Source: Ensifer sp. LC163 (GTDB lineage Bacteria > Pseudomonadota > Alphaproteobacteria > Rhizobiales > Rhizobiaceae). From it: a stretch of 64,000 nt of DNA. Where the stretch lies: contig NZ_MBSS01000067.1 in NCBI RefSeq assembly GCF_001695855.1, positions 124,001-188,000 of the forward strand, given 5' to 3'. Position numbers and translations under genes: made by a program. Below are positions 56,751 to 64,000 of the stretch, piece by piece (positions within the stretch are counted from its first letter, which is position 1; every line of letters starts with the position of its first letter). The notes under the pieces were generated by a model. It ran no database searches, had not been told where the DNA came from, and was given only the letters and a program-made list of their open reading frames with translations.

Positions 56751-57230
56751 TCAGCCCTTCATGCGTTCCGGGATCGGCACCCCTTCGAAACTCTTCAAGG
56801 TCTCGAGCACGATCGACGTCTTCACATGCTGCACGCTGTCATGCGGCAGCAGCACATCGTTGACGAAGCGCGAAAGGCCGGCAAGGTCGGGTGTCACCAC
56901 GCGCAGGTGGTAGTCCATTTCCCCGGTCAGCGCGTAGGCCTCCAGAACTTCGGGCAAGCCCGAGATCAGCTTGCCGAAGCGCTTGGCGTTGTCGCGGTTG
57001 TGGGTGGCGAGTGTCACCGAAATCACCACCATCAGGTCGAGCCCGAGCTTCTGCCGGTCGATCTGCGCCTGATAGCCCGTAATGTAGCCCTCCGCCTCCA
57101 GGCGAGTGCGGCGGCGCGAGCATTGCGAAGGCGAAAGCGCGATGCGCTCCGATAGCTCGTTATTGGTAAGATGTCCGTCACGCTGCAGTTCGCTGAGGAT
57201 CTTGAGGTCGAACCCGTCAAGCTGCTCCAT
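56751..57230 (-). CDS. Lrp/AsnC-family regulator
   Basis: This 159-residue protein has the AsnC helix-turn-helix (LDGFDLKILSELQRDGHLT, LSERIALSPSQCSRRRTRLE) and the C-terminal RAM ligand domain (GYQAQIDRQKLGLDLMVVIS, TGEMDYHLRVVTPDLAGL). Its stop is one base from the convergent MarR-gene region. It is divergent from hppD, so it likely activates hppD in response to tyrosine, phenylalanine or their ketoacids. It is also a candidate bkd regulator, since Lrp-type BkdR commonly flanks bkd operons, but bkd lies more than 7 kb away. Confidence 0.92.
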   Translation of the reverse strand: MEQLDGFDLKILSELQRDGHLTNNELSERIALSPSQCSRRRTRLEAEGYITGYQAQIDRQKLGLDLMVVISVTLATHNRDNAKRFGKLISGLPEVLEAYALTGEMDYHLRVVTPDLAGLSRFVNDVLLPHDSVQHVKTSIVLETLKSFEGVPIPERMKG

Positions 57231-57254
57231 TCATGCATCCTTATACAATATTTC

Positions 57255-57267
57255 GCACGTTTCGTGC
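57255..57267. promoter_or_regulatory. GCACG-TTT-CGTGC palindrome between the Lrp gene and hppD
   Basis: A perfect five-base inverted repeat with a 3-nt centre lies 25 nt upstream of the Lrp start and in the shared promoter region of hppD. Lrp sites are often 13-15 bp with this layout. Confidence 0.45.
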
Positions 57268-57380
57268 AGCGCCATACGCGAAACGCGCGAGAATACAAGC
57301 ATCATGCATCGGATTTGCGTCATACTCCAGCAAAGTTTGGAGGCCAGAGAAATCTGGAGAACTTGAAGAGGAGACTTCCG

Positions 57381-58493
57381 ATGGGCCCGTTCCCACATGA
57401 CGCCCCGCCCGCAACGATCACGGCGGAAAATCCGGCCGGTACGGATGGCTTCGAATTCGTTGAATTCGCCCATCCGGAGCCGGAGAAGCTCGCCGAGCTC
57501 TTTACCCGCATGGGTTACAGCCCTGTCGCGAGGCACAGAACCAAGAACATCACCGTTTGGCGACAGGGCGACATCAATTACATCCTGAATGCCGAGCCGG
57601 GCTCGCATGCCATGCGCTTCGTCGACGAGCACGGCCCCTGCGCCCCGTCGATGGCCTGGCGCGTCGTCGATGCCAAGCATGCTTTCGATCACGCGGTCTC
57701 CAAGGGCGCGATCCCCTATGAAGGCACAGACAAATGTCTCGATGTTCCGGCGATCGTCGGCATCGGTGGATCGATGCTCTATTTCGTCGAAACCTACGGC
57801 GCCAAGGGCTCGGCCTATGAGGCCGAATTCGAATGGACCGGCGAGCGCAATCCGAAGCCGGAAGGCGTCGGCTTCTATTATCTCGACCACCTCACACACA
57901 ACGTCTATCGCGGCAACATGGACAAGTGGTGGGCCTTCTACCGCGAACTGTTCAACTTCACGCAGATCCATTTCTTCGACATTGACGGCCGCATCACCGG
58001 CCTCGTCAGCCGCGCGATCACCTCGCCCTGCGGCAAGATCCGCATTCCGCTGAACGAGTCCAAGGACGACACCAGCCAGATCGAGGAATATCTGCGAAAG
58101 TACAAGGGCGAAGGCATCCAGCACATCGCCGTCGGCACCGAAGGCATCTACGATGCCACCGACAAGCTGTCGGACAATGGTCTGAAGTTCATGCCGGGTC
58201 CGCCGGACACCTACTACGACATGTCGCACGACCGTGTGCACGGCCATGACGAACCGATCGAGCGGATGAAGAAGCACGGCATCCTGATCGACGGCGAAGG
58301 CGTGGTGAACGGCGGCATGACGAAGATCCTGCTGCAGATCTTCTCCAAGACGGTCATCGGGCCGATCTTCTTCGAGTTCATCCAGCGCAAGGGTGACGAA
58401 GGCTTCGGCGAGGGCAATTTCCGCGCCCTGTTCGAATCGATCGAAGCCGACCAGATCCGCCGCGGCGAACTCGGGCCGCAGGCCGCCGAGTAG
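57381..58493 (+). CDS. hppD: 4-Hydroxyphenylpyruvate dioxygenase
   Basis: This 370-residue iron enzyme turns 4-hydroxyphenylpyruvate into homogentisate, feeding hmgA. It has two VOC-type repeats. DGFEFVEFAHPEPEKLAELF opens the first. YLDHLTHNV and GIQHIAVGT supply the two iron-binding histidines, and GFGEGNFRALFESIE the Glu ligand with the conserved C-terminal helix. AAGAGGAGACTT precedes the ATG at 57381. Upstream frame extensions to 57171 run through the Lrp promoter region. It is split from the hmgA operon by the two regulators. Confidence 0.97.
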   Translation: MGPFPHDAPPATITAENPAGTDGFEFVEFAHPEPEKLAELFTRMGYSPVARHRTKNITVWRQGDINYILNAEPGSHAMRFVDEHGPCAPSMAWRVVDAKHAFDHAVSKGAIPYEGTDKCLDVPAIVGIGGSMLYFVETYGAKGSAYEAEFEWTGERNPKPEGVGFYYLDHLTHNVYRGNMDKWWAFYRELFNFTQIHFFDIDGRITGLVSRAITSPCGKIRIPLNESKDDTSQIEEYLRKYKGEGIQHIAVGTEGIYDATDKLSDNGLKFMPGPPDTYYDMSHDRVHGHDEPIERMKKHGILIDGEGVVNGGMTKILLQIFSKTVIGPIFFEFIQRKGDEGFGEGNFRALFESIEADQIRRGELGPQAAE

Positions 58494-58600: not shown

Positions 58601-59569
58601 TCAGTTCGAGGCGTCGTTGACGACGCGCCAGTTCGGCCGACCGAGATCATGCGGCCATTCATGTACGTCCCGATCGTTGAAATAGACGACTTCGACCAGG
58701 TTTGGGAAATCCGGGTCGGGCTGTGTGGCCGTGTCGATCCACGGCTGCATATAGGGTTTCCCGCCCTCCCAACCGAGCTCGGCGACCCAGATCGGCTTGT
58801 TGTATTTGGCCACCAGATCGTAGCCGGGTTTCAGGGCTTGCTTGAAGGTGTGCGGCCCGCCGTATTCGATCGCGTCGAACGGTTCGAGACCGAACACTGA
58901 AAGACCGACGAGATCGACATAGTCGTCGCCCGGATAGTATTCACCAAGGTTCGGCAGGCCTTTCGGCGACCACATCAGCTGCACGTTCGGCACGCGTTTG
59001 CGCACGATATCCATCGCGTGCTTGTAGGCCTTGACGTAGTCCTGCGGCGCCCATCCGGCCCAGGAGAACCGTCCGGACGTGTCTTCCATTTCCTGTCCCC
59101 AGCGCACGATGACCGGGCTCTTCAGCTCGGCGAGCATGCTGGCGATCGCTTCCATATTGGCGTCGTAGTCGCCCCTGAGCGTCCGATCGCGCAGTTGCGC
59201 CGGGGTCAGCTTCCAGTCGAGCGACCACGACCAGGGCTCGATGGTGACCAGCAGCTTGCGCTTGCGCTGAAGCGCGTAGGCGTCCGCCAGGCGCAGCGAT
59301 TCCAGATCCACGTCTTCCCATGGCAGAAACAGGGCCTCTGTCGAGACATCGGTCTGGCCGCCGAAATCGCCGTGCGGATCATAGGCACCGAACCGTGTTC
59401 CGCCGGGATGGATGACGGGGCGCTTGTCGGCTATTGTCTGCGTCTGACCTGCATTTCCATTGGCGGCAAGATCGGCCTTCTCCTGTGCCAACGCGGATAC
59501 GAGGCCTGCGCCGGAACCCAGATGAAGGGCAAGCACAGTGCATAGGGCGAATGCCAATTTGCGTTTCAT
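58601..59569 (-). CDS. Secreted GH26-like glycosidase of the polysaccharide operon
   Basis: This 322-residue protein has a signal peptide (MKRKLAFALCTVLALHLGSG, cleavage near LAQEKA). The TIM-barrel core resembles GH26 beta-mannanases: RFGAYDPHGDFGGQTDVST, LVTIEPWSWSLDW, VIVRWGQEMEDTSGRFSWA (putative acid/base Glu) and PIWVAELGWEGG (putative nucleophile Glu). It probably trims or releases the polysaccharide made by the upstream GT2, as endoglucanase BcsZ does for cellulose; that is inference. GGAGG precedes ATG 59569, which lies one base after the stop of the DUF995-like gene. Confidence 0.85.
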   Translation of the reverse strand: MKRKLAFALCTVLALHLGSGAGLVSALAQEKADLAANGNAGQTQTIADKRPVIHPGGTRFGAYDPHGDFGGQTDVSTEALFLPWEDVDLESLRLADAYALQRKRKLLVTIEPWSWSLDWKLTPAQLRDRTLRGDYDANMEAIASMLAELKSPVIVRWGQEMEDTSGRFSWAGWAPQDYVKAYKHAMDIVRKRVPNVQLMWSPKGLPNLGEYYPGDDYVDLVGLSVFGLEPFDAIEYGGPHTFKQALKPGYDLVAKYNKPIWVAELGWEGGKPYMQPWIDTATQPDPDFPNLVEVVYFNDRDVHEWPHDLGRPNWRVVNDASN

Positions 59570-59570
59570 G

Positions 59571-60110
59571 TCATCCTCCAGTGGCGTTGCGACCGCCCTT
59601 CTTGACCCGGAATTGGTCCTTGAGGCGTAACGCCTTTTCCGTGATCTCGTCGGAAGCGACGAGTTTCCTGTATTCGTCGCCAGGCTTCGGTTTGGCATGT
59701 TTGAAGACGTACCACTCGCCATTCGGCACGCGGCGCTGGTAGATCGTGTCTCCGATCTTGCTGTGTCCGAAGCAGGTGCGGGCCGCGCCGGAGCCGTCGG
59801 CCGCCGTCCACCTTGCCTGCATGCACATCATGCCAAGGTCGCTGACATACCAGTTGCCTTCCGCAAACGAGCGTTTGCCTTGGTTGTCGACGAAAGCGAC
59901 CAGTTTCCTGTCGTGCGCGGTAAAGCGAGCGCCGCCCGTCGGCCATTGCCAGGTCTTGTTCCGGTAGAGGGAATAGACCTCGTAGGCGCTCAAGGGGATC
60001 GGCTTGATCTCCATTTTCGCCCTGGCCGGTTGTGCGCCCGTATAGGCCGCAAAGGCTGCGAGCGGCAGCAGAAGCGGCAGAAGCAATACATTCATGGACC
60101 GTTTCATCAC
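59571..60110 (-). CDS. Exported DUF995-like protein
   Basis: This 179-residue protein has a signal peptide (SMNVLLLPLLLPLAAFAAYT, cleavage near ARAKME). The mature part has SAYEVYSLYRNKTWQWPTGG, RFTAHDRKLVAFVD, EGNWYVSDLGMMCMQARW and CFGHSKIGDTIYQR, which I recognise as DUF995-like, a family mostly from rhizobia and relatives. Two cysteines could pair. Its function is unknown. It is placed between the GT2 synthase and the GH26-like gene and is coupled to the latter, so a periplasmic or surface role in the same polysaccharide pathway is likely. Confidence 0.8.
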   Translation of the reverse strand: MMKRSMNVLLLPLLLPLAAFAAYTGAQPARAKMEIKPIPLSAYEVYSLYRNKTWQWPTGGARFTAHDRKLVAFVDNQGKRSFAEGNWYVSDLGMMCMQARWTAADGSGAARTCFGHSKIGDTIYQRRVPNGEWYVFKHAKPKPGDEYRKLVASDEITEKALRLKDQFRVKKGGRNATGG

Positions 60111-60166
60111 TTTTTCTCCTCGCTTGAGGGCCGTTTGCGGTGCGAGGGGCCTGCGGCATGCTGCGC

Positions 60167-62126
60167 TTACAGCGATGCCTGAAGCCGACCGACCTTGCTG
60201 GTAACCCTCGTCTCACGTGCCTCCGGCAAGCCGGAGCCTTTCCGCAGCCCGTCTGTCGCGGACGGCGAAAATCCTTTCCATTTCAAACGAAACCGCACGA
60301 TCCTGAGGTCCGACCCGCCCTGCCCGGCACCGGCGACCGAAAACTTCGCTTCGGTCAGCCCGACGAACCAGAGCCCCTGCGACAGCGCTTCGGCGGCCTC
60401 AGCGCCATGGCGGATGGCCGACTGCCCCGACAGCACCGAGATAACCACGAGGCAGCCACCGGTCAGCGCCGTCATTGCCGTGCGCGGAACGAGCGCAAGG
60501 CGGTTTTCGCGCGCGTGCTGGACATGGATGGTGGCAGCGAGCCCCGCATAGATCAGGGCGTTGATACCGGCAAAGATGTAGAAGCCGCGCGCCGTCCCGG
60601 CGTCGGAGACGAGCCAAAGCGCAAGGGCAGAGCCGAGCGAAAGCACGAGATAGGGCATCGTGACGCGCAGCGGCAAGGGCGCCGCCGGCCCGGTTGCCCT
60701 TGGGCGTGATGCGGAAGTCGACGAAGGAACCGCTGATGTGATCGCGCAACGCCGCCGCGCAACCGAGCAGCGACCACGGCCAGCGGGCAAAGAGAAACAG
60801 CATGCCCTCCCAGCTGAGCACCCGCGCATCATGCGGGCGGAACGTGCCGGTCGAGCGCCAGAAATAGGCAAGCGCGACCAGAACCAGCGACAATGGCGCA
60901 AAATGCAGCACGAAGTCGGGATAGGTGGCGGCAACGAAGCTGCGTCCCATGACGAGCGCCATGATCGGCATGACGAACATCAGCGCCATAAACAGAGAAA
61001 ACAGCGGATACCAGAGCTGCGAGAAGACGAACTGGAACTTCAGCCGCATCGGCAGCCGCGGCACATAGATCGGCGAATACTTGAGCAGGATCGTCATAAG
61101 GCTGCGCGACCACTGGAATTCCTGGATGACGAGATCCGCAAAAGTGGCGGGCCCGTCGCCATGGGCGATCGCATGCAGGGCATGCACGCCCTTCCAGCCG
61201 CCGGCGTTCATCAGGAGCGTCGTCGAATGGTCTTCGGCGAGCTCCGGCCCCAGACCGCCGACCTGCTTCAGCGCTTTGGTCCGGACCGCATAATGCGAGC
61301 CGATGCAAAGCGGCGCCCAGCCGTTGTTGTAGCCCGCCTGCAAGGAGCCGTGGAGGCTAGCTTCGGCGTGAAGGCGACCACGTGCCGACCAGCTACGCCG
61401 CGCGTTGGCATCACAGATGCTCGGCGCCGAGACATAACCGACTTTCGGGTCGTTGAACGGCCGCAGTACCTCGACGAGATAGGTCGGCTCGGGCACGTGA
61501 TCGGCGTCGAACTGCGCGACGAAATCGTAACGGTCGTAACCGTAGTGGTCGTAGAAATAGGCGAGGTTTCCCTCCTTGCAACGGGCGCGCCGCGGCCAGG
61601 TGGCGCGATGATAGTCTGCCACCCCCTTGCGCGTCGAAATGAACACGCCCTGCCGCGCGCACCAGTCGATCGTCTCGGGCGACGGATCCTCGTCCGCCAG
61701 CCATACGTCGTAGTCGCAGCCGATCTGGTCGAGCATCGCCAGCAGCGTCTTGCGGACGACAGCGAAAGGCTCCGACGGCGTCTTGGTCACCACCATGGCG
61801 ATCCGGCCGGGCGGGATGGCCCGGCCGCTCTTTCCGACGACCTTGGCGCCTGCGAAGATGAAGATGAAATAGGCGGGCAGCAGCGTGATCCAGCCAACCA
61901 CGATCGTAATCATGACGTAGGATGGCCAATCGTTGACATGGGCTGGGTCGAGCCACCAGGCCCAGAAAAACAGGAATGCCGCCACCCAGGCTGCGATGCC
62001 GAAGCCGTTCACAATCCGCATGCGTGTCGAAAAGAGCGCGACGAGCCTAACCGGGGCATCGCTTGCCGGCGCCGCCGTCAACGCGGCGCTACCGGCGGGA
62101 TGGGCAGATGAGATCTTGCTCGTCAT
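60167..62126 (-). pseudogene. Cellulose-synthase-like GT2 glycosyltransferase with a frameshift
   Basis: The first frame (62126 to about 60696, 477 residues) has two N-terminal helices, AIPPGRIAMVVTKTPSEPF, the GT2 motifs WLADEDPSPETID and QFDADHVPEP, the AEDHST region and QWSRSL (a QxxRW variant), then several membrane helices. Near 60694-60696 the frame breaks just after ITPKG. Skipping one base in GGCAACC continues it as TGPAAPLPLRVTMPYLVLSL in another frame to the stop at 60167, giving 652 residues in total, a normal length. All catalytic motifs precede the break; the lost part is the last membrane helices. The cause could be mutation or a base-call error. It overlaps the epimerase gene by four bases (ATGA). 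Confidence 0.82.
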
Positions 62127-63106
62127 GACCGCACCTCCAGCCCGAAACCGGGGGCAGCCGTTCTGATGATGGTTGCGATATCGGACAGCGACGGCCGGAA
62201 CCTGAGCGTCTGGCGTGCCCAGGCGGTGTCGGCATAAAGCACGGGCGGATCGCCGGCGCGGCGCGCCAGGAGCTGCACCGGGACCCGCCTGCGGGTGACA
62301 TGGTGGATGGCATCAATCACCTGCTTGACGGACGTGCCGTGGCCCGAACCGAGATTGGCCTTGAGCGGGTCGCCGCCGTTACGCAGGTGGTCGACGGCGG
62401 CAACATGCGCCTCAGCCAAGTCCATGACGTGAATGTAGTCGCGGATGCAGGTGCCGTCGGGCGTGTCGTAGTCGTCACCGAAGACGTCGAGCCTGTCGAG
62501 CCGGCCGGCTGCGGCCATCAATGCCCGCGGGATCAGGTGGGTCTCCGGGTCGTGCCGCTCGGTCAACTGCCCATCGGGATCGGCACCGGCAGCATTGAAG
62601 TAGCGCAAGGCGACGGAGCGGAACCCGTAGGCCCGGGCATAGTCGCCAAGCATCAGCTCGACCATCAGTTTCGTGCGGCCGTAAGGATTGACCGGAAGCT
62701 GGATCGTATCCTCGGTGATCGGCAACCGCGGCGGCACGCCATAGGTCGCGCAGGTGCTGGAAAAGACGATGCGCGCCAGCCCCGCCTGCCGGCAGGCCTC
62801 CAGCAAGGAAACGCTACCGACGACATTGTTGCGATAGCACTTTCCGGGATCCTCTACCGATTCTCCGACATAGGCGGAGGCGGCGAAGTGAATCAGGCAC
62901 TCGGGCTTGAAGGTCTGGATCGCCTCCATGATCCGTCCCGTGTCTTCGAGCCCGCCCTCGACCAGCGGCCCCCAGCGGACATTGGTCCGGTGTCCCGTCG
63001 ACAGATTGTCGTAGACGACCGGCAGGATGCCGGCCTCAGCGAGGCGTTTGCAGGTATGGCTGCCTATGAAGCCGGCTCCGCCGGTGACAAGAACGACGCG
63101 CGACAT
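62123..63106 (-). CDS. GalE-like NAD-dependent epimerase (UDP-glucose or UDP-xylose 4-epimerase)
   Basis: This 327-residue short-chain dehydrogenase has the NAD motif VLVTGGAGFIGSHTCKRL, the serine SSTCATYG and the YxxxK pair in NPYGRTK, with RYFNAAGADPDG and IRDYIHVMDLAEAHV typical of UDP-hexose 4-epimerases. It is coupled to a UDP-glucuronate decarboxylase gene (one base gap) and the GT2 (overlap). In S. meliloti an enzyme pair of this type makes UDP-xylose then UDP-arabinose (Uxs and Uxe), so UDP-xylose 4-epimerase is at least as likely as GalE/ExoB. The start MSRVVLVTGG at 63106 is the family start. Confidence 0.88.
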   Translation of the reverse strand: MSRVVLVTGGAGFIGSHTCKRLAEAGILPVVYDNLSTGHRTNVRWGPLVEGGLEDTGRIMEAIQTFKPECLIHFAASAYVGESVEDPGKCYRNNVVGSVSLLEACRQAGLARIVFSSTCATYGVPPRLPITEDTIQLPVNPYGRTKLMVELMLGDYARAYGFRSVALRYFNAAGADPDGQLTERHDPETHLIPRALMAAAGRLDRLDVFGDDYDTPDGTCIRDYIHVMDLAEAHVAAVDHLRNGGDPLKANLGSGHGTSVKQVIDAIHHVTRRRVPVQLLARRAGDPPVLYADTAWARQTLRFRPSLSDIATIIRTAAPGFGLEVRS

Positions 63107-63107
63107 A

Positions 63108-64000
63108 TCATACCGCCTCTCCCGCCGCGGCGAGATCTGACCTACCCACGCAGCGATCGAAATAGGCAATGGCGCGTTGAAGCCCTTCGCGCAGCGCGAC
63201 CTTGGGTTCCCAGCCGAGCTCGGCCATGGCCTGGGAAATGTCCGGTCGACGTTGGCGCGGATCGTCGACGGCTGCCGCGCGGTGTACGATGCGCGAGCCC
63301 GAGCCGGTCATCGAGCGGACCATCTCGGCAAGTTCGAGAACCGTGAACTCGCCCGGGTTTCCGAGGTTGATCGGACCGATGCAACCGTCGTCCGAGACCG
63401 ACAACCGAATGAAGCCCTCGATGAGATCGTCGACATAACAGAAGGAGCGCGTCTGCTGACCATCACCGTAGATCGTCAGATCCTTGCCGAGCAGCGCCTG
63501 CACCACGAAATTCGAGATGACGCGTCCGTCGTCGGGGCGCATGCGCGGCCCATAGGTGTTGAAGATCCGCGCGACCTTCGTCTTCACCCCGTAGGTGCGA
63601 TGATAGTCGAAGAAGAGTGTCTCGGCCGATCGCTTGCCCTCATCGTAGCAGGCGCGCGGCCCGATGGGGTTGACGTTGCCGAAGTAGCTCTCGCGCTGCG
63701 GGCTGTGCAGCGGATCGCCGTAGACCTCCGAGGTGGAGGATTGCACGACCGTGGCCCCGGTGGCACGGGCGTTCTCCAGCACGTTCATCGCGCCGAGCAC
63801 GTTGGTCATCAACGTTCCCACCGGGTCGGCCTGGTAGTCCGGCGGAGACGCCGGCGAAGCGAAATTGAAGATGACGTCGACGTCGAAAAGGAAAGGCTTG
63901 CGGACGTCGTGCTCGACGATGTGGAAGCGGCTTATCTCGTTGAGATGGGAAAGGTTTTCTCGCCGACCGGTCGAGAAATTGTCGAGGCAGACAACGCTGT
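63108..64000 (-). CDS. UDP-glucuronate decarboxylase (UDP-xylose synthase), 5' end beyond window
   Basis: About 297 residues of an extended SDR are visible; the N-terminal NAD motif lies past the right edge. [33 protein letters not shown] and [17 protein letters not shown] are characteristic of the UXS family, with the catalytic YxxxK in [27 protein letters not shown] and [17 protein letters not shown] follow. It oxidises and decarboxylates UDP-glucuronate to UDP-xylose. It ends one base before the epimerase start and leads a run of five minus-strand genes. Confidence 0.9.

Follow-up and report, generated by a model that had tools for sequence, protein, structure and literature searches.

The window analysed here is a stretch of 64,000 nucleotides from Ensifer sp. 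LC163, positions 124001-188000 of a 210-kb contig in a 68-contig draft genome (6.5 Mb, 96.9% complete). At its right edge lie five minus-strand genes, in the order uxs, uxe/galE-like, GT2 (glycosyltransferase family 2), DUF995 and GH26-like (glycoside hydrolase family 26), which very probably form an operon for a pentose-containing polysaccharide. Coordinates refer to the window unless a label precedes them: L002 is the window's own locus (L002:10566 corresponds to position 190566 of contig C67), G000 its own genome, L005 the nearest relative, in which the synthase is intact, and L065 the locus of Sinorhizobium meliloti 4H41. Judged by the operon locus, the closest named relatives are Ensifer adhaerens Lc04 and SD006, Sinorhizobium sp. 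A49 and E. oleiphilus. The features are as follows, the aps names being those of the S. meliloti operon introduced below.

63108..64000, running past the window edge to L002:8172, minus strand: uxs, UDP-glucuronate decarboxylase (UDP-xylose synthase, UXS), by phmmer against PDB and the Pfam Epimerase family.
62123..63106, start taken at 63106 (MSRVVLVTG), minus strand: uxe/galE-like UDP-sugar 4-epimerase, by TIGR01179 and a PDB match.
60399..62126, minus strand: first part of an apsS-like GT2 synthase, an open frame of 575 amino acids, by Pfam PF13632 and PF03552 and a BcsA match.
60167..60696 (the frame itself spans 60167..60934), minus strand: C-terminal part of the GT2 synthase in another frame, by alignment to relatives; membrane segments (by eye) and a tail.
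59571..60110, minus strand: DUF995 protein, apsH1-like, with an N-terminal signal-like segment, by PF06191 (8.7e-48).
58601..59569, start chosen at MKRKLAFAL, minus strand: GH26-like protein, apsE-like, with a signal-like N-terminus, by PF02156 (34.4 bits).

The window edge cuts uxs, whose whole frame (354 amino acids) occupies L002:7108-8172. An earlier note, made from the sequence of the window, had described five genes on one strand in this order, and the coordinates and family matches confirm it. It had also given gaps or overlaps of 1 to 56 nucleotides. Those between uxs and uxe (1 nucleotide), uxe and GT2 (an overlap of 4) and DUF995 and GH26 (1 nucleotide) stand, but the spacing of 56 nucleotides between GT2 and DUF995 is obtained only with a GT2 end at 60167, and the frame that opens at 62126 stops at 60399. 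The earlier note was silent on this frame break and on the regulator CuxR; the LuxR-type gene and the type I secretion cassette described below lie outside its window. A promoter and terminator scan of the locus returned loose consensus matches only.

The operon had been presented as under-described. The homologous operon of S. meliloti has, however, already been published as the APS (arabinose-containing polysaccharide) operon, uxs1-uxe-apsS-apsH1-apsE-apsH2, according to the excerpted text of PMC7902896, and a putative operon resembling it is mentioned for Rhizobium etli in an excerpt of PMC9495663. The gene set of L065 matches the APS operon, and the core of what the earlier note proposed is thus published in substance for S. 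meliloti. At L065 the order is uxs, uxe, GT2, DUF995, GH26, DUF995, and upstream of these a divergent gene encodes an AraC-type protein. Going by position, the DUF995 proteins are apsH1 and apsH2, the GH26-like protein is apsE, and the AraC-type protein is CuxR.

The window shares with L065 the same five families in the same order, and the two synthases are 68-72% identical over the matched part. They differ in four respects. The window has a single DUF995 gene (no apsH2), whereas L065 has two; CuxR was not found in the window's own genome, where a LuxR-type regulator and a type I secretion cassette stand instead; the window synthase falls outside the group of all 25 CuxR-linked synthases in a tree; and it is not intact, its frame being broken near codon 477. 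With a high degree of confidence we read the genes as an APS-like, synthase-dependent pentose-polysaccharide operon, homologous to that of S. meliloti and with a synthase of another clade. This is a real, conserved operon of a known pathway, in a distinct variant, whose synthase is broken in this assembly.

Conservation was assessed over 64 loci found through the GT2 gene, with one genome per species; two of the contigs end at the synthase. Near the synthase, uxs was present in 62 loci, uxe in 61, GH26 in 61 and DUF995 in 43. Allowing for other genes in between, the order uxs-uxe-GT2 was kept in 56 of the 64, and the full order uxs-uxe-GT2-DUF995-GH26 in 29, which places the five-gene arrangement far beyond chance; the recurrence expected by the earlier note was thus borne out. 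Eighteen of the 29 full-order loci carry a further DUF995 gene, as in S. meliloti, and 11 do not, as in the window. GH26 precedes DUF995 in nine of the 64, and 17 have GH26 but no same-strand DUF995, 13 of these being of a Rhodobacterales type. Odd layouts are those of L021, L044, L046, L056, L057, L058, L061, L060 and L063. The contigs of the last two, assigned to Saccharimonadia (L060:9971-12950) and Amesbacteria (L063:9974-12488), both within Patescibacteria, carry an adjacent GT2-GH26 pair alone; neither uxs nor uxe was found near the pair on these contigs.

The state of the synthase in LC163 bears on what the operon can do in this strain. Its frame from 62126 keeps homology with those of relatives up to about residue 477 only, beyond which it continues out of frame to 60399; the relatives' continuation is found in another frame of the window, ending at 60167. 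In this gene the window is one base longer than all of 19 relatives' loci (these come from about 15 genomes, since four of the loci appear to duplicate the genomes of four others). Twelve of the alignments place the difference in a single one-base gap, at codon 477 in 11 and at codon 480 in one, and the other seven, more divergent, contain several gaps netting to one base. The intact L005 protein is matched by the window's own genome in two pieces, residues 12-480 and 475-652. Over about 16 kb compared with L005, the synthase gap is, as read from the list of gaps, the only uncompensated one inside a predicted gene; single gaps at L002:1365 and 2493 coincide with the limits of predicted genes or fall just beyond them. 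The out-of-frame part comprises membrane segments, recognised by eye, and a tail, which in most relatives bears an AGAG- or SGAG-type motif; the motif is clearly absent from four members (L021, L060, L061 and L063). Programmed frameshifting was set aside, because relatives read the same stretch in one frame.

The break could be a mutation or an assembly error. Should it be real, the synthase would end short of the final membrane segments and the tail, and APS production by this strain would be unlikely. The operon would then be decayed in LC163, with a synthase pseudogene beside genes that persist for now, or that persist because the epimerase also supplies UDP-galactose. This explanation, which is compatible with an APS-like operon for the family as a whole, is a possible one, with the balance tilted against it. 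It draws on the one-base change in net length relative to 19 of 19 loci and on the single DUF995 gene, no second copy having been found in the genome (96.9% complete). Against this, the DUF995 and GH26 frames are intact and 97% and 98% identical, respectively, to those of the nearest relative, and beyond the break the encoded sequence retains 94% identity with the protein of that relative, so that any loss is recent, unless the 68-contig draft is misassembled at this point. A single DUF995 gene also occurs in 11 of the 64 loci with the same layout; DUF995 number is therefore no sign of decay. The GT2 frame also reads as split in L058 (Rhizobium sp. RCAM05350 plasmid), as is uxs there, and in L048 (S. 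fredii USDA 205).

Another possibility is that the genes form a cellulose- or mixed-linkage-glucan-type operon, in which the GT2 protein would use UDP-glucose, the epimerase would make UDP-galactose for other surface glycans and the GH26 protein would trim in the manner of a lichenase. We consider this improbable, although three of the nearest matches point that way. The first concerns the sugar-nucleotide enzymes. Searched against PDB with phmmer, the uxs product matched human UXS1 (2b69) at 373 bits, the next function, a 4-epimerase, coming at 152 bits; by sequence it is closest to characterised UXS, above other short-chain dehydrogenases. The epimerase scored 398.6 bits against TIGR01179 (GalE), for a cut-off of 262.3, and its nearest PDB entry is a UDP-glucose 4-epimerase (4twr, 472 bits), as a glucan system would have it. 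Its action on UDP-xylose is what we infer from the uxs neighbour and the S. meliloti homologue. Against a glucan stand uxs, which lies near the synthase in 62 of the 64 loci, and the S. meliloti homologue, which is published as arabinose-containing in the excerpted APS paper (PMC7902896).

The second match is that of the synthase, whose nearest PDB entry is BcsA (5ej1, 69.5 bits), with which its DxD, KxGN and ED motifs align. Motifs were compared, and the tree built, on 61 of the 64 loci plus the window's own, L048, L057 and L058 being left out for split or truncated GT2 frames. In all 62 aligned synthases the QxxRW of BcsA is replaced by QxxQW (QEFQW in 61, including residues 335-339 of the window protein where it reads QEFQW, and QELQW in one), and AED stands in place of TED. 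A pattern search found QEFQW in 16 of 16 further relatives from the genus and family; the same kind of search, which is not an alignment, covered 13 distant GT2 frames, all of them with QxxRW and 11 with TED. PilZ was found neither in the intact L005 protein (E<=0.1) nor in the window's own GT2 pieces (E<=0.001), and both this and the motif change argue against a glucan synthase. The label of cellulose-synthase-like GT2 used in the earlier note thus holds for the nearest structure and the aligned motifs, but not for QxxRW. Since the intact relative has no PilZ match, we expect no effect of cyclic di-GMP on the synthase by way of that domain. Across this pentose-linked class, then, a donor-site motif conserved in processive GT2 synthases is changed.

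The comparison with the bcs system, in which BcsZ, a GH8 enzyme, trims cellulose in the periplasm, runs along the same lines. Both combine a membrane GT2 protein carrying DxD, KxGN and ED motifs with a secreted glycosidase. The window operon differs by QxxQW, AED and the UXS and epimerase genes, by the PilZ result, by bcsB and bcsC not being seen in the operon, and by a GH26 gene where bcs has BcsZ. A bcs or curdlan operon proper was set aside, QxxRW and PilZ being absent.

The third match is the GH26-like protein. A profile of 55 of 65 sequences (three of them second, reversed copies; near-duplicates, judged by eye, were omitted, as was the partly masked L047) hit the lichenase CtLic26A in PDB at 3e-19 and then beta-1,3-xylanases. 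The fold, predicted with a pLDDT confidence of 93, matched CtLic26A (2vi0) in Foldseek with an E-value of 4e-15 and a TM score of 0.72. The earlier note had made its glycosidase assignment depend on both catalytic glutamates. Residues E112 and E216, numbered on the modelled fragment L002:2604-3425, are invariant in 55 of 55 sequences and align with residues counted as E109 and E222 of CtLic26A (2bvd), which we take to be its catalytic glutamates; alignment and model thus indicate a GH26 TIM barrel with its catalytic pair, and an inactive pseudo-enzyme was set aside. The likeness to CtLic26A and the beta-1,3-xylanases extends to predicted fold and glutamates, but identity to the best Foldseek matches is only 18-19%, and the window-type GH26 lies near a synthase in 61 of 64 loci; the substrate is not predictable from it. 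GH26 has also been placed in a Wzx/Wzy cluster (PMC13390465, in excerpt).

For the APS-like operon, the following scheme would fit. UXS would make UDP-xylose, part of which the epimerase would convert to UDP-L-arabinopyranose. The GT2 membrane synthase would polymerise pentosyl units with inversion and pass the chain through the inner membrane, and inverting transfer from UDP-xylose or UDP-arabinopyranose should give equatorial pentosyl linkages that a retaining GH26 enzyme could cut. The exported GH26 protein would trim or clear chains in the periplasm, as BcsZ does on cellulose, and the DUF995 protein would be a dedicated envelope partner of the synthase or the polymer. The upstream LuxR-type regulator, rather than CuxR, would control expression of the operon and probably that of the divergent type I secretion cassette as well. 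The earlier proposal of a UXS- and epimerase-supplied, synthase-dependent pentose polymer with a periplasmic glycosidase accordingly remains the best reading, on gene-order recurrence and the kept GH26 glutamates; its novelty does not.

The role suggested for DUF995 comes from co-occurrence. Among 297 genomes of the order, the synthase was found in 13 (threshold E<=1e-90, weaker matches counting as absent), and all 13 carry DUF995 at no less than 96 bits; of the other 284, six have DUF995 matches of 20-54 bits and none a stronger one, the DUF995 and synthase samples being treated as one draw, as their listed genomes agree. G134 and G260, two of the 13, have the DUF995 gene and the synthase on separate contigs. 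On this ground DUF995 seems to serve the QxxQW-class synthase in the order; loci of the Rhodobacterales type have no DUF995 nearby. Its AlphaFold model (147 residues, pLDDT 91) is mostly beta. Neither a fold search against PDB (no match at E<=0.001, best E 0.28) nor a sequence search there (best E 0.1) identified a relative. The family alignment comprised 49 of 63 sequences, near-duplicates (by eye) and the partly masked L047 being left out. Our search of the open-licence literature returned, for DUF995, nothing beyond a title on a rice DUF740 gene. The association gives DUF995 a concrete, testable role as partner of one synthase class.

CuxR-like genes (at least 250 bits) occur in 26 of the 64 loci. 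In the window's own genome the best CuxR match reached 56.9 bits over query residues 238-364, the helix-turn-helix (HTH) part only, and none reached E<=1e-30; six of 16 genus genomes have longer AraC relatives (109-188 bits), none of them on the operon's contig. Upstream of the operon lies instead a gene for a LuxR-type protein of 293 amino acids (L002:8816-9694, minus strand, outside the window). In the genus, 16 of 16 genomes carry this gene on the same contig as the operon, at a distance of 2.6-2.7 kb upstream from the synthase start. Family matches of the protein cover the HTH only. In Rhodobacterales, LuxR-type proteins encoded at the corresponding position align with its N-terminal part, which we read as a putative receiver-like domain without the usual aspartate. 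A VpsT-like cyclic di-GMP receptor was considered and set aside, since inspection of the sequence by eye did not show the W[FLM][TS]R motif.

Divergent from the LuxR gene, at L002:10566-17720 (C67:190566-197720, outside the window), is a type I secretion cassette: a 336-amino-acid protein with asparagine/aspartate-rich repeats, a 720-amino-acid protein matching nothing in Pfam, NCBIfam or PDB, an ABC transporter and an HlyD protein. LuxR genes (at least 50 bits) occur in 13 of the 64 loci, 12 of which also carry the 720-amino-acid protein and the ABC transporter, L010 being the exception; the 720-amino-acid protein is present in none of the 43 non-LuxR loci with more than 8 kb upstream. These counts and the Fisher test made on them ignore kinship, five of the 12 co-carrying loci being close Ensifer relatives. 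The 336-amino-acid protein was found in six of the 64.

In the tree of 62 synthases, a branch with support 100/94 separates the 25 CuxR-linked ones, together with three unlabelled ones, from all 14 LuxR-linked synthases, the window's included; 23 rows are unlabelled, and the placement of the long branches L060, L061 and L063 is uncertain. S. meliloti and the window's group both belong to closely related genera of the Rhizobiaceae. That their synthases nevertheless belong to different clades suggests transfer, or an old duplication with loss. Tentatively, and with somewhat less than even confidence, we propose two regulatory lineages of the pentose-polymer synthase operon, one wired to CuxR, the other a LuxR and type I secretion super-locus through which Ensifer and Rhodobacterales would make a pentose polysaccharide together with large secreted matrix proteins, the window belonging to this second lineage; in this proposal the QxxQW synthases form a class of their own, GH26 is a near-constant partner reaching into Patescibacteria, and DUF995 is a dedicated envelope factor in the order. 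It predicts an APS-type polymer in Ensifer and marine Rhodobacterales under a LuxR protein, together with protein secretion, and not under CuxR. The QxxQW class, the DUF995 coupling and the LuxR and type I secretion pairing appear new within the open-licence literature searched; on the last of these, the excerpt of PMC13235738 describes a different gene cluster.

Several points weigh against the main reading of an APS-like pentose-polysaccharide operon. By sequence the family of the epimerase is GalE only, and UDP-arabinose as its product is something we infer. The exact five-gene order is absent from 35 of the 64 loci, and the broken synthase frame means that the operon may be dead in LC163. 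No outer-membrane exporter was seen in the operon, so that the genes here leave the crossing of the outer membrane unexplained. As for regulation, the six LuxR matches from Rhodobacterales score low (54-75 bits) and cover chiefly the HTH, the LuxR gene might act on nothing but the divergent secretion cassette, and at the thresholds used neither CuxR nor LuxR was found in 25 of the 64 loci, so that the regulatory scheme is tentative.

Further copies of some of these genes were noted. A second LuxR paralogue in the window's own genome (G000:C30:40071-40862) is 72% identical to the one upstream of the operon, and a second GH26-family match (G000:C1:547046-547318, 26.2 bits) lies away from the operon. 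Near the operon, a second, reversed GH26-like gene (133-199 bits) is present at L012:5836-6909, L013:2091-3176, L029:17542-18801 and L058:5824-6423. Beyond the 3' end of the window's operon, and convergent with it, the open reading frame at 57171-58493 presumably encodes a 4-hydroxyphenylpyruvate dioxygenase, to judge from its appearance.

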